A DNA stretch of 64,000 nt, taken from NCBI RefSeq assembly GCF_900215295.1, contig NZ_OCMF01000001.1, positions 1,426,001-1,490,000 of the forward strand, written 5' to 3'. The stretch's first letter is position 1; the number at the start of each line of letters is the position of its first letter. Made by a program: the position numbers and the translations under genes. A model generated the notes under the pieces. It made no database searches and was not told where the DNA came from. It saw nothing but the letters and a program-made list of their open reading frames with translations. Below, in pieces: positions 23,612 to 26,594 of this stretch. The stretch is from Salinimicrobium sediminis (GTDB lineage Bacteria > Bacteroidota > Bacteroidia > Flavobacteriales > Flavobacteriaceae).

Positions 23612-24742
23612 ATGGCCGGAATTTATATTCACATACCATTTTGCAAACAAGCCTGTCACTATTGTGACTTTCATTTCTCGACTTCGGTAAAGAAGAAACC
23701 GGAGATGGTGGAGGCGATCTGCAAAGAACTTGAGCTGCGGAAGGAGGAAATTGGAGATGAGGTCGAGACTATTTACTTTGGTGGGGGAACTCCGTCTTTA
23801 CTTTCTGCGGAAGAATTGCAGCAGATATTTAAAACGATCTTCAGCAATTACAAAGTTTCCGAAGATCCTGAAATTACCCTTGAGGCCAATCCCGATGATC
23901 TTACTGAAGAAAAGATAAAGATGCTGGCAGCTTCGGGGATAAACAGACTGAGCATAGGCGTACAATCATTCTTTGAAGAGGATCTTAAGCTGATGAACAG
24001 GGCGCATAATGCTGAAGAGGCTTTGGAATCCATAAAACTGGCGAAGCAGTATTTTAAGAATATTTCCATTGACCTTATCTACGGCATCCCTGGCATGAGC
24101 AATGAGCAATGGAAGGAAAATCTCCAAATCGCTTTGGATCTCGGAGTACCGCATATTTCCAGTTATGCATTGACAGTAGAGCCAAAGACAGCTTTGAAGA
24201 GCATGATCGAAAAGGGAAAGATCGCCCCTGCAGAGGAGGAGTTGGCTAAGGAGCAGTATGAGATGATGATCGAAGTATTGTCTGTTGCCGGTTTTGACAA
24301 CTATGAATTCTCCAACTTCGGCAAACCCGGATTCTTTTCCCGCAACAATACCGCCTACTGGTTTGGAAAGCCTTATCTCGGAATTGGACCATCAGCACAT
24401 TCCTTTAATGGCTTTCACCGCAAGTGGAACATCAGCAATAACACCATTTACATCAAGGCACTTCAAAAAGGGGAAATTCCGGCGGAGGTTGAGAAGCTTT
24501 CTATTGCCGACCGCTACAATGAGCTCGTAATGACCCGCCTCCGCACCAAATGGGGCATTGCCGTAGATGAGGTGGAACGAAGCTTTGGAAAAAAGTATAA
24601 AGATTACCTGCTTCGGGAAGCAGCAAAACTCTTAGAAGACGGACTACTGGAATGGAACGACAGCCGGCTGCAGGTTTCCAAAAAAGGGAAATTCTTAAGC
24701 GATGGTATTGCCGCGGAGTTGTTTTGGGTGGAGGAGTATTAA
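23612..24742 (+). CDS. hemW: Radical SAM heme chaperone HemW
   Basis: 376 residues. Radical SAM cluster motif CKQACHYC (Cys11, 15, 18) in IYIHIPFCKQACHYCDFHF, then YFGGGTPSLLS, ITLEANPDDLT, RLSIGVQSFFEEDLKLMNR and GIGPSAHSF, plus the HemW C-terminal domain (YNELVMTRLRTKWGI). Family members are often misnamed coproporphyrinogen III oxidase. The 74-bp gap from ruvC holds short AAATTTGAAGATTTGAAAAT-type text. Confidence 0.93.
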   Translation: MAGIYIHIPFCKQACHYCDFHFSTSVKKKPEMVEAICKELELRKEEIGDEVETIYFGGGTPSLLSAEELQQIFKTIFSNYKVSEDPEITLEANPDDLTEEKIKMLAASGINRLSIGVQSFFEEDLKLMNRAHNAEEALESIKLAKQYFKNISIDLIYGIPGMSNEQWKENLQIALDLGVPHISSYALTVEPKTALKSMIEKGKIAPAEEELAKEQYEMMIEVLSVAGFDNYEFSNFGKPGFFSRNNTAYWFGKPYLGIGPSAHSFNGFHRKWNISNNTIYIKALQKGEIPAEVEKLSIADRYNELVMTRLRTKWGIAVDEVERSFGKKYKDYLLREAAKLLEDGLLEWNDSRLQVSKKGKFLSDGIAAELFWVEEY

Positions 24743-24747
24743 AACAG

Positions 24748-25140
24748 AGATGCTGAAACGAATTCACTTTGAACTGATTTCAGAGTCTACAATTCAGCTC
24801 TAAATAGAGATGCTGAAACGAGTTTAGAATGACGATAGGATTTTTTGTCCTCCGTCACCCTGAATTTATTTCAGGGTCTACAATTGAGCTTCAAATAGAG
24901 ATGCTGAAACAAGTTCAGCATGACGTGGTGTTTTCGCCGTCCCCTTGAATTTATTTCAGGGTCTACAATTGAGCTCTAAATAGAGATGCTGAAACAAGTT
25001 CAGCATGACGATAGGTAAAACTGTGCACTCGTCACTCTGAACTGGTTTCAGGGTCTACAATTGAGCTCTAAATAGAGATGCTGAAATAAGTTCAGCATGA
25101 CGTGGTGTTTTTGCCGTCACCCTGAATTTATTTCAGGGTC
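24748..25140. repeat. Double-palindrome repeat array, left part (5 units)
   Basis: Units begin with AGATGCTGAA at 24748, 24808, 24899, 24984 and 25076, spaced 60-92 bp. Each has two palindromes: GCTGAA..GTTCAGC and CCCTGAATTTATTTCAGGG, joined by TCTACAATTGAGCTCTAAAT-like sequence. The first two units are the most degraded. Continues on the far side of the GIY-YIG gene. Confidence 0.9.
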
Positions 25141-25158
25141 TTTTTTACCTTTATTCAA

Positions 25159-25452
25159 ATGAAACGTAGCTACATCTATATTCTATCCAATGAGCGGAGA
25201 GCAGTTTTATATATTGGTGTCACAGCAGATCTCTATAAAAGGGTGGCCGAACATAAATCGGGAAGAGGTGCAAATTTTACTCAGAAATATAATTTAAAGG
25301 TGCTGCTGTATTTTGAAGAATTCTCATCCATAGATCAGGCAATAGCAAGGGAAAAGCAATTAAAGAACTGGCATAGAGAGTGGAAATGGAATTTAATAAA
25401 GAAATTGAATTCGGAGTTGAAGGATCTTTTCGAAGATATTACTCCACACTAG
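25159..25452 (+). CDS. GIY-YIG nuclease (UPF0213-like) inside a repeat array
   Basis: 97 residues, essentially one GIY-YIG catalytic domain: YIYILSNERRAVLYIGVTADLYKRVAEHK with the two tyrosines and catalytic Arg, then AIAREKQLKNWHREWKWNLI with the catalytic Glu. It is the only gene within nine palindromic repeat units, five upstream and four downstream. Its TAG stop overlaps the first bases of repeat unit 6 (TAGATGCTGAA). The arrangement resembles RAYT/REP systems, in which a nuclease is tied to repeat spread; for this family that is inference. Confidence 0.9.
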   Translation: MKRSYIYILSNERRAVLYIGVTADLYKRVAEHKSGRGANFTQKYNLKVLLYFEEFSSIDQAIAREKQLKNWHREWKWNLIKKLNSELKDLFEDITPH

Positions 25453-25792
25453 ATGCTGAACCAAGTTCAGCATGACGTGGTGTTTCGCCGTCCCCCTGAA
25501 TTTATTTCAGGGTCTACAATTGAGCTCTAAATAGAGATGCTGAAACAAGTCCAGCATGACGTTAGGATTTTTTGTCCTCCGTCCCCCTGAATTTATTTCA
25601 GGGTGTACAATTGAGCTTCAATTAGAGATGCTGAAACGAGTTCAGCATGACGTTAGGAATTTTTTTGTCCTCCGTCACCCTGAATTTATTTCAGGGTCTA
25701 CAATTGAGCTTCAAATAGAGATGCTGAAACGAGTTCAGCATAACGTTAGGAATTTTTTTGTCCTCCGTTACCCTGAATTAATTTCAGGGTCT
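25451..25792. repeat. Double-palindrome repeat array, right part (4 units)
   Basis: Units begin at 25451, 25535, 25626 and 25719 (84-93 bp apart) with the same palindromes as the left part: GCTGAAAC.AGTTCAGC and CCCTGAATT.ATTTCAGGG. Linkers (GTTAGGA, T-run, GTCCTCCGT) are very alike among the last three units, suggesting recent duplication. Confidence 0.9.
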
Positions 25793-25841: not shown

Positions 25842-26594
25842 GTGCAGGCAGTAATAAAACATCATCAGCAACAGTACTTAATCGATTTCTCCAAGCCCCT
25901 GGACATTTCCCTTAGTTTAAGAGGGGATGACAAGAATCCGGTGGCCTGGTATCTCAAGGCGCCAAAAATCACTCCGGTGCAGGATGGGACCTGGATTGGA
26001 AAGGTGAGCAAAGGCGGATCTGTGAATTTCAACAACATTTATTTTAATCCGCATGGCCATACTACGCATACTGAGTGTGTAGGGCATATTACTTCTGAAT
26101 ATCACGGCATTAATGAAAGCTTAAAAACCTTCTTCTTTGCGGCTAAATTAATTTCTGTAGAGCCTGTGAAATTTGGCGAAGATGAGGTGATCACAAAAGA
26201 TCAGATAAGAAAGCTTTTTAAAGAGGGAGAGGCCCAGGCGATTATAATCCGTACGCTCCCAAACAGCATTGCCAAGCGCAGCAAACACTATTCTCACACC
26301 AACTGGCCCTACCTAATGGAAGATGCCGCGGTCTATCTGCGGGAGTGCGGAGTCCAGCATCTGTTGATCGATCTGCCTTCTGTAGACCGGGAAGAGGATG
26401 GTGGAAAATTATTGGCTCATAAAGCCTTTTGGAACTATCCGAAGAACACGCGTCACGAAGCAACTATTACCGAACTGGTTTATGTACCGTCACGAATTGA
26501 AGACGGCTTTTATTTTTTAAATCTGCAGCCGGCCTCATTTGAAAATGACGCTGCACCATCAAAACCGGTGCTTTACAAACCTCAAAACATATGA
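25842..26594 (+). CDS. Cyclase/kynurenine-formamidase-family metal hydrolase
   Basis: 250 residues. Carries the metal-site signature NPHGHTTHTECVGHI (HxxxHTE type) and the late LLIDLPSVDREEDGGKLLAHKAFW, as in the PF04199 cyclase family that hydrolyses N-formylkynurenine or related amides; the true substrate is not evident. GTG at 25842 is the probable start (QAVIKHHQQ follows). Overlaps the DUF4260 gene by 4 bp. Confidence 0.82.
   Translation: MQAVIKHHQQQYLIDFSKPLDISLSLRGDDKNPVAWYLKAPKITPVQDGTWIGKVSKGGSVNFNNIYFNPHGHTTHTECVGHITSEYHGINESLKTFFFAAKLISVEPVKFGEDEVITKDQIRKLFKEGEAQAIIIRTLPNSIAKRSKHYSHTNWPYLMEDAAVYLRECGVQHLLIDLPSVDREEDGGKLLAHKAFWNYPKNTRHEATITELVYVPSRIEDGFYFLNLQPASFENDAAPSKPVLYKPQNI

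Follow-up and report, generated by a model that had tools for sequence, protein, structure and literature searches.

A GIY-YIG nuclease gene within an inverted doublet of CGTC-tagged repeats in Salinimicrobium sediminis points to a REPIN-like repeat system

Repetitive extragenic palindromic (REP) sequences that carry a CGTC tag have been described from Proteobacteria, Chlorobi, Bacteroidetes, Spirochaetes and Thermotogae as stems of 8-9 bp with loops of 4-5 nt, found mainly as tag-outside (HH) doublets (PMC3733652). In the available portions of that survey (Di Nocera, De Gregorio and Rocco 2013), CGTC REPs are unassociated with transposase genes, no tyrosine transposase gene is flanked by CGTC sequences, a dedicated enzyme is named as future work, and GIY-YIG goes unmentioned (PMC3733652). 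The same portions class the neisserial repeat dRS3 as a CGTC-1 REP (PMC3733652), and nearly 700 copies of dRS3 are given for the meningococcus in the accessible part of another article (PMC10745880). REPs with an enzyme of their own are known from the REP-associated tyrosine transposases (RAYTs): according to the portions available, a distinct cluster of inverted REP doublets (REPINs) lies beside each RAYT, REPINs form tandem clusters and take a clover fold (Bertels and Rainey 2011, PMC3116915), and GTAG plus the stem-loop is read in single strands, with cleavage beside the hairpin (PMC8266576). Here we analyze a 64,000-nt stretch of the genome of Salinimicrobium sediminis (contig NZ_OCMF01000001.1, positions 1,426,001 to 1,490,000; hereafter the window), in which the gene for a 97-aa GIY-YIG nuclease sits inside one unit of an array of CGTC-tagged REPs. 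As an association, the analogy to RAYT and REPIN with a GIY-YIG enzyme is strongly supported.

The array consists of 18 palindromes (9 A and 9 B) around a single open reading frame (ORF). Everything that the original prediction, made from the letters of the window, had described at this level is present, namely the 97-aa ORF (25159-25452) with its coordinates, five repeat units before it and four after it, their spacing, and both palindromes. The A palindromes start at 24749, 24809, 24900, 24985, 25077, 25452, 25536, 25627 and 25720, which gives A-to-A spacings of 60, 91, 85, 92, 375 (spanning the gene), 84, 91 and 93. The expected overlap of the TAG stop (25450-25452) with the array was likewise found and amounts to one base shared with the start of A6. 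For the number of palindromes chance is excluded: CTGAA-N5-TTCAG with at most 1 mismatch occurs at 30 sites in the window, 18 of them within the array, whereas 100 shuffles of the entire window gave 4.0 on average and never more than 10.

Two points of the original prediction had to be redrawn. A and B, taken there for two different palindromes, are inverted copies of one kind of REP with an outward CGTC tag (CGTCA-stem-5-nt loop-stem-TC): B reads CGTCACCCTGAA-N5-TTCAGGGTCT, and A on the opposite strand reads CGTCATGCTGAA-N5-TTCAGCATCT, so that each pair is an inverted REP doublet. The distance from B to A is fixed at 21 nt in all 7 gene-free pairs and that from A to B varies between 11 and 20 nt, which makes B-21 nt-A, with a CGTC tag on the outside at either end, the regular unit. 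The gene, previously placed between two units, lies inside the fifth B-A dimer at the spacer position; it replaces the 21-nt spacer there, and 311 nt separate B5 and A6. The first unit (24749-24787) is degenerate, with A1 and B1 overlapping. The elements of the array are as follows.

24749-24774, minus strand: lone degenerate A palindrome A1, overlapping the degenerate B1.
24762-24834, unstranded: dimer 1, degenerate B1 + 21 nt + A2.
24853-24925, unstranded: dimer 2, B2 + 21 nt + A3.
24938-25010, unstranded: dimer 3, B3 + 21 nt + A4.
25030-25102, unstranded: dimer 4, B4 + 21 nt + A5.
25115-25477, unstranded: gene-bearing dimer, B5 (25115-25140), gene, A6 (25452-25477), with CGTC tags at both outer ends.
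25159-25452, plus strand: 97-aa GIY-YIG nuclease gene (PF01541; conserved active-site columns).
25489-25561, unstranded: dimer 6, B6 + 21 nt + A7.
25580-25652, unstranded: dimer 7, B7 + 21 nt + A8; its predicted single-stranded DNA fold has three hairpins.
25673-25745, unstranded: dimer 8, B8 + 21 nt + A9.
25766-25791, plus strand: lone B palindrome B9, the end of the array.

As single-stranded DNA, one REP is predicted to form an 8-bp hairpin that leaves CGTC unpaired (z -4.9). A doublet standing alone elsewhere in the genome (L025, see below) is predicted to form a cloverleaf of three hairpins closed by CGTC:GACG (z -6.6), and array dimer 7, folded from a stretch in which two bases are missing from one outer tag, three hairpins without closing pairs (z -6.0).

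The window protein matches the Pfam GIY-YIG family (PF01541) with an E value of 1.6e-17. Six residues (Tyr, Tyr, Arg, His, Glu and Asn) are invariant across 25 aligned homologues; they include the Tyr of both signature motifs, and we take them to be the GIY-YIG active site. The sequence leaves no doubt about the fold class. By sequence, the solved relatives are 1zg2 and 1ywl (UPF0213) and 1yd6 (UvrC), and the homing endonuclease I-TevI (1mk0) is a weak match (E 0.07). NCBIfam gave no match for the protein, and the PADLOC defence and PHROGs phage libraries gave weak matches only. For 12 clade members the ratio of nonsynonymous to synonymous substitution rates (dN/dS) could be measured in 27 of the 66 pairs, none of which contains the window gene itself; it was 0.07-0.26, which indicates that the protein is under purifying selection in these related genes. 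No intron or intein was noticed at the gene, no RNA-family search having been made on the window; the gene is a free-standing intergenic ORF between REPs, which speaks against an intron or intein homing endonuclease.

The pairing of gene and repeat is well supported, and the association is general. At least one exact 8-bp CGTC hairpin was found at 19 of the 30 best same-family homologues (window gene included; 2.1-3.3 kb inspected for each). In a plasmid-collection sample (13 of 35 matches), CGTC or TGTC hairpins occurred at 10 of the 13 loci, and the nearest lay within about 90 bp of the gene in 9 of these 10. The Photobacterium locus (L074) has tagged hairpins downstream only, from about 180 bp on; the nine other hosts with tagged hairpins are Sinorhizobium, Azospirillum, Novosphingobium, Neisseria, Aeromonas, Sphingobium, Rhizobium, Neorhizobium and Shinella, and in Azospirillum the nuclease gene sits between sufB and sufC.

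A larger set of 80 collection loci (the best 80 of 570, from many phyla) was obtained by a scan with a four-sequence alignment, which favours members containing REKQLK[KN]W and R[EQD]WKI[ND]LI. In this set, 51 loci have a CGTC hairpin at most 250 bp from the gene, 24 of them on both sides, and the density of CGTC hairpins falls from 1.75/kb within 250 bp (gene included) to 0.62/kb at 250-500 bp and to 0-0.16/kb per 250-bp bin beyond 500 bp. When hairpins were counted blind to the tag, CGTC was the commonest tetramer within 250 bp (107 of 189 hairpins). A test independent of both hairpin and tag compared the two flanks with each other: in 44 of 71 loci their best inverted match scored beyond the 99th percentile of shifted control windows, 9 of the 80 loci having been dropped for short flanks. 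Finally, 184 loci were catalogued, of which L055 was dropped for lack of an ORF match (leaving 183) and 7 for lack of 200 bp on both sides (leaving 176). A CGTC/TGTC hairpin is present on at least one side in 116 of these 176 loci and on both sides in 80. Counting the nearest tagged hairpin at 150 bp or less, 59 loci have an outward pair, 4 an inward pair, and 63 a tagged hairpin on neither side; the outward element around the gene has a median length of 383 bp.

The source genome (G000, 3.48 Mb; the window is C8:1426001-1490000) provides internal controls. It holds 14 matches to PF01541, 12 of which fall outside this nuclease group, and no CGTC/TGTC hairpin was found at eight other GIY-YIG loci (six separate places, covering 10 of these 12 matches). 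Tandem GIY-YIG frames were noted at two places in the genome. L003 and L007 (G000:C8:1248568-1249084) are two closely similar tandem GIY-YIG frames with CCTGCCTGCCGGCAGGCAGG palindromes beside them and, by reading of the sequence, a putative tRNA gene directly upstream; L005 and L006 (G000:C7:188993-189561) are near-identical 84-aa GIY-YIG genes in tandem, accompanied by a terminator-like hairpin that is repeated.

The original prediction had proposed to compare repeat types with nuclease clades, and the comparison shows that clade tracks type. The tree set comprised 90 proteins of one family, taken by score (the best 30, then 60 of 120 further listed matches in roughly score order); 3 proteins under 75 aa were dropped, leaving 87. 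By motifs chosen after inspection of the flanks and before the tree was built, 75 of the 87 nucleases were typed into eight repeat types, and the 12 untyped rows, some of which by eye have GTCATTCTGAG-like or similar ends, were left out of the tree count. Repeat type changes 13 times on the nuclease tree, where the minimum possible is 7 and the shuffled mean is 42.1, and 0 of 200 shuffles were as low; the tree rests on few columns with many open forks, its deep order is unsure, and near relatives add to the clustering. The GCstem5 type (3 rows) does not cluster on the tree. Within a single genome, G044, the nucleases are paired with CTGAA5 (L059), GCstem5 (L170), CCTGC4 (L183), TCCGC4 (L185) and TTGCGA (L214), a further one (L187) being untyped. 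Nothing else argues as strongly for a cognate relation as this matching of nuclease clade and repeat type within genomes.

Genomes without the gene were predicted to lack the repeats, and mostly they do: of the 62 genomes lacking a homologue, 3 carry the tagged CTGAA repeat, with two matches each, as against 38 of the 87 in which a homologue is present at E 1e-8 or better (Fisher p 6e-8). The tagged repeat is nevertheless absent from 49 of the 87 homologue-bearing genomes, and seven genomes with at least 4 copies have no matching-clade nuclease among the matches listed. The tagged repeat is found in 20 of the 25 genomes with a matching-clade nuclease versus 21 of 124 others, and at least 4 tagged matches in 15 of the 25 versus 7 of the 124. 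These 25 include G109 (L049) as a tree member, and G088 and G100 by similarity only; for the 23 tree members alone, the tagged repeat is present in 18 of 23 versus 23 of 126.

Pattern searches and short stretches underlie the genome-wide counts for the source genome. There the core pattern was matched at 54 sites, compared with 1 for a reversed control. The full tagged pattern has 17 matches, 9 in the array and 8 elsewhere; the latter lie at six places, as two doublets (L025 and L031) and four singletons. The dispersed tagged population is thus small. Both isolated doublets have their tags outward, and each is nested within an outer inverted repeat, GGCTGTC...GACAGCC. A common target hairpin of this sequence was considered: with a 10-40 nt interior it does not occur in G000, and with a 95-125 nt interior it occurs only at L025 and L031. 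Being confined to these two loci at the spacings searched, it has the look of a further outer layer belonging to the element itself rather than of a common target. The rhizobial nuclease elements L073 and L077 also lie inside longer inverted repeats, which resemble that of L025 and L031. A second nuclease of the group, L004 (G000:C8:1509055-1512276), has a different CGTC-ended repeat on both sides, CGTCTTTGCGAAGGAGC...CTCGCAAAGACG; the CGTCTTTGCGAAGGAGC pattern has 13 matches in G000, 6 of them at L004.

The same site was followed through the genus. The intergenic space of the array is bounded by the end of the upstream gene at 24742, from which the array starts 6 bp downstream, and by the start of the downstream gene at 25842.

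23612-24742, plus strand: upstream neighbour, a radical SAM / HemN_C protein (HemW-like, name inferred).
25842-26594, plus strand: downstream neighbour, a cyclase-family PF04199 protein, used to locate the same site in congeners.

The downstream gene was found in 11 of 12 genus genomes, and 1.5 kb on each side of it was taken as the site. The nuclease gene together with repeats is present in 2 of the 11 (G000 and G154). Neither gene nor repeats were seen in seven (G150, G151, G152, G155, G157, G158 and G007), where part of the G151 stretch consists of N and the upstream gene is outside the view in G150 and G152; in G157, G007, G155 and G158 the end of the HemW-like gene is nearby, which shows the site to be empty in these four. 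The closest homologue that G007 has (70% identity) is located away from this site. The isolated doublets L025 and L031 are absent from G150, the closest genome checked (neighbour proteins 94% and 93% identical), whose junctions are too diverged to give the exact empty site of either doublet. This pattern fits gain and loss, short of showing transposition.

Taking these results together, we consider it probable that the window holds a REPIN-like repeat system with its own GIY-YIG nuclease, working by a hairpin-cutting route such as the following. The unit is two inverted CGTC-tagged REPs with the tags outside, one unit holds the nuclease gene in the position of its spacer, and the other dimers would be gene-free derivatives. 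The nuclease would most likely recognise its REP in the form of a single-stranded hairpin and cut it, reading a clade-specific stem beside the shared CGTC/TGTC tag. Host repair that copies or recombines the cut ends could then multiply repeats and arrays: recombination between repeats would lengthen arrays, and repair of a cut template would copy a doublet elsewhere. GIY-YIG enzymes hydrolyse DNA and, unlike Y1 transposases, are not known to reseal strands; joining would then be left to host repair. Of the self-propagating RAYT/REPIN-like system proposed in the original prediction, the association stood, being found in many phyla and with clade tracking, and the support did not extend to spread, as only 8 fully tagged copies lie outside the array in this genome and no cleavage, excision or insertion was seen; that the nuclease spreads the repeats is what we infer. 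More tentatively, and with rather less confidence than would make it the expected outcome, we propose that the GIY-YIG nuclease is the missing mobiliser of CGTC REPs, the roughly 380 bp nuclease-bearing REPIN being autonomous, gene-free REPINs its non-autonomous offspring, and spread a matter of single-strand hairpin cleavage plus host repair. If true, this would be a route of mobile DNA without transposase, integrase or reverse transcriptase.

Several observations weigh against a system that propagates itself in this manner. Neither excision nor a target duplication nor a precise empty site was obtained at the loci studied. Four of the six dispersed tagged places in G000 are singletons rather than doublets. 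Only 59 of the 176 catalogued loci show the exact outward pair, and 60 have no CGTC/TGTC hairpin within about 290 bp, 29 of these 60 carrying inverted flanks with a score of at least 12. Among far hairpins of the 80 collection loci CGTC is again the commonest tag, though on 63 of 478 only. Repeats without the nuclease gene are present at the window's site in two congeners (G156 and G149; loci L165 and L167), and seven genomes (G006, G031, G047, G084, G125, G133 and G138) have at least 4 repeats and no matching-clade nuclease among the matches listed, with tagged CTGAA matches reaching 76 in G084, 36 in G031 and 33 in G138. In such repeat-rich genomes either the gene was lost after the spread, or the repeats came by another route, or the gene is missing from the assemblies or from the matches listed.

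The alternative that survives best, possible in our judgement and on balance doubtful, is that the nuclease serves the host as an Ssn-type enzyme, cutting incoming or exposed single-stranded DNA at the repeats (tuning DNA uptake, for example), the repeats being marker sites that it does not spread. It draws on the purifying selection in the clade and on the Neisseria homologue, which is 42.7% identical over 92% of the query and embedded in CGTC-tagged ATTCCC...GGGAAT hairpins that we take to be dRS3; a 2025 paper reportedly assigns such a role to the Neisseria enzyme. A kept host function accords poorly with a gene position that is not conserved (2 of 11 genus loci, the window's included, with the nearest homologue in G007 elsewhere), and the internal stops in 18 of the 150 matches listed for nuclease homologues fit a dispensable element better.

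It is unlikely, in our view, that the REPs came first as a preferred landing or homing site, were spread otherwise, and received a mobile GIY-YIG gene that inserts into the dimer spacer. The gene does replace the 21-nt spacer as a homing insertion would, and the two congeners with repeats and no gene at the window's site, like the seven genomes with at least 4 copies and no matching nuclease among the matches listed, are what such an order of events would leave. Against it, across genera the repeat type descends together with the nuclease clade, several typed pairs occur in one genome, and the outward pair that bounds the gene in 59 of 176 loci delimits an element of a median 383 bp.

That the CGTC repeats are moved by a Y1 tyrosine transposase (RAYT) encoded at another place in the genome, with the GIY-YIG gene as a passenger, was rejected and seems very improbable. 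G000 does carry two Y1_Tnp genes, which lie away from the array, and both Y1 loci (3.3 kb each) are free of CGTC/TGTC-tagged hairpins and of CTGAA palindromes, one having its own different palindrome instead; the accessible text of the 2013 survey likewise reports no tyrosine transposase gene flanked by CGTC sequences (PMC3733652). The Y1 transposase gene in question (L252, around G000:C5:79513-79857) is flanked by copies of CCCCGGGTTGAAACCCGGGG and a variant, and L252 is likely a RAYT/REP pair. Least probable of all is a passive association, in which permissive intergenic spacers collect both gene and repeats and slippage lengthens the arrays; although the elements are mostly intergenic and the array units tandem, this is contradicted by the steep distance profile, the tag specificity, the orientation bias of 59:4, the clade matching, and the absence of tagged hairpins from the remaining GIY-YIG loci inspected in G000.

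The pairing gives each CGTC repeat type a specific candidate enzyme, sometimes with several pairs in one genome, and makes cleavage of cognate versus non-cognate repeats, as well as repeat gain, directly testable. If the enzyme does spread the repeats, REPIN-like systems would have arisen with two unrelated enzymes.

Compared with the systems described, the window repeat resembles the CGTC REP superfamily in its terminal unpaired CGTC, 8-bp stem, 5-nt loop and outward doublets; in the superfamily the terminal motif may also be TGTC or CCTC. The 3-nt tail, mostly CCA in the superfamily, is mostly TCT in window copies and TCC or TCT in dispersed copies, and a TCCA tail occurs at many loci in other phyla. 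What sets the window apart from that superfamily as described is the nuclease gene inside a dimer, together with homologues that adjoin such repeats in many phyla. With neisserial dRS3/NIME elements it shares CGTC-tagged hairpins around a nuclease homologue, and differs in that dRS3 has a 4-nt loop, another stem and nearly 700 copies, as against 8 tagged copies outside the array in G000. GIY-YIG homing endonucleases, UvrC and UPF0213 belong by sequence to the same domain family (PF01541); the window gene differs in being free-standing, and the other GIY-YIG loci examined in G000 are without tagged hairpins.

The closest relative on the enzyme side is reportedly described by Chenal et al. (Nat Commun 2025), where Ssn is said to be a GIY-YIG family cutting single-stranded DNA at specific sequences, Neisseria Ssn to act on a repeat (NTS) present in hundreds of copies, and homologues to cut corresponding sequences; the emphasis is said to lie on natural transformation and tools rather than on REPIN anatomy. 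The Neisseria homologue of the window protein is presumably this Ssn protein, and its place among dRS3-like repeats leads us to expect the window protein to be an Ssn relative. Small size, conserved catalytic residues and the Neisseria homologue are in line with this, and judged by sequence the window nuclease is probably a relative within the Ssn family. As for a cognate repeat in many copies, which marks Ssn, the counts here are 8 fully tagged copies outside the array in G000 and up to 76 in one relative, G084, whose listed matches include no nuclease of the matching clade. In PMC full text, whose coverage leaves out the Ssn work and which is therefore no proof of novelty, no article was found to join GIY-YIG with "repetitive extragenic palindromic", nor does any title or abstract start among those listed join GIY-YIG with REPs; PMC9465073 and fungal mitogenome articles contain both kinds of term. 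Should the Ssn paper already connect homologues with the repeats beside them, the pairing itself would be known, and the novelty would lie in the REPIN anatomy in which a doublet encloses the gene, in assigning the repeats to the CGTC REP superfamily, and in the matching of clade to repeat within one family.

The parallel with REPIN and RAYT goes furthest. The two systems share an inverted REP doublet as the unit, a conserved foot tetranucleotide, co-evolution of enzyme and repeat, and tandem clusters; the RAYT REP's conserved tag with a clade-specific stem recurs in the GIY-YIG system, and the REPIN cluster for each enzyme, the tandem clusters and the clover fold each have a counterpart there. 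They differ in the enzyme, GIY-YIG and not a Y1 HUH transposase, in the tag, CGTC/TGTC and not GTAG, and in the need that a hydrolytic nuclease would have of host repair for joining. Working like REPIN-RAYT while lacking two of its defining features, the system of the window is therefore likened to it and not counted as a member.

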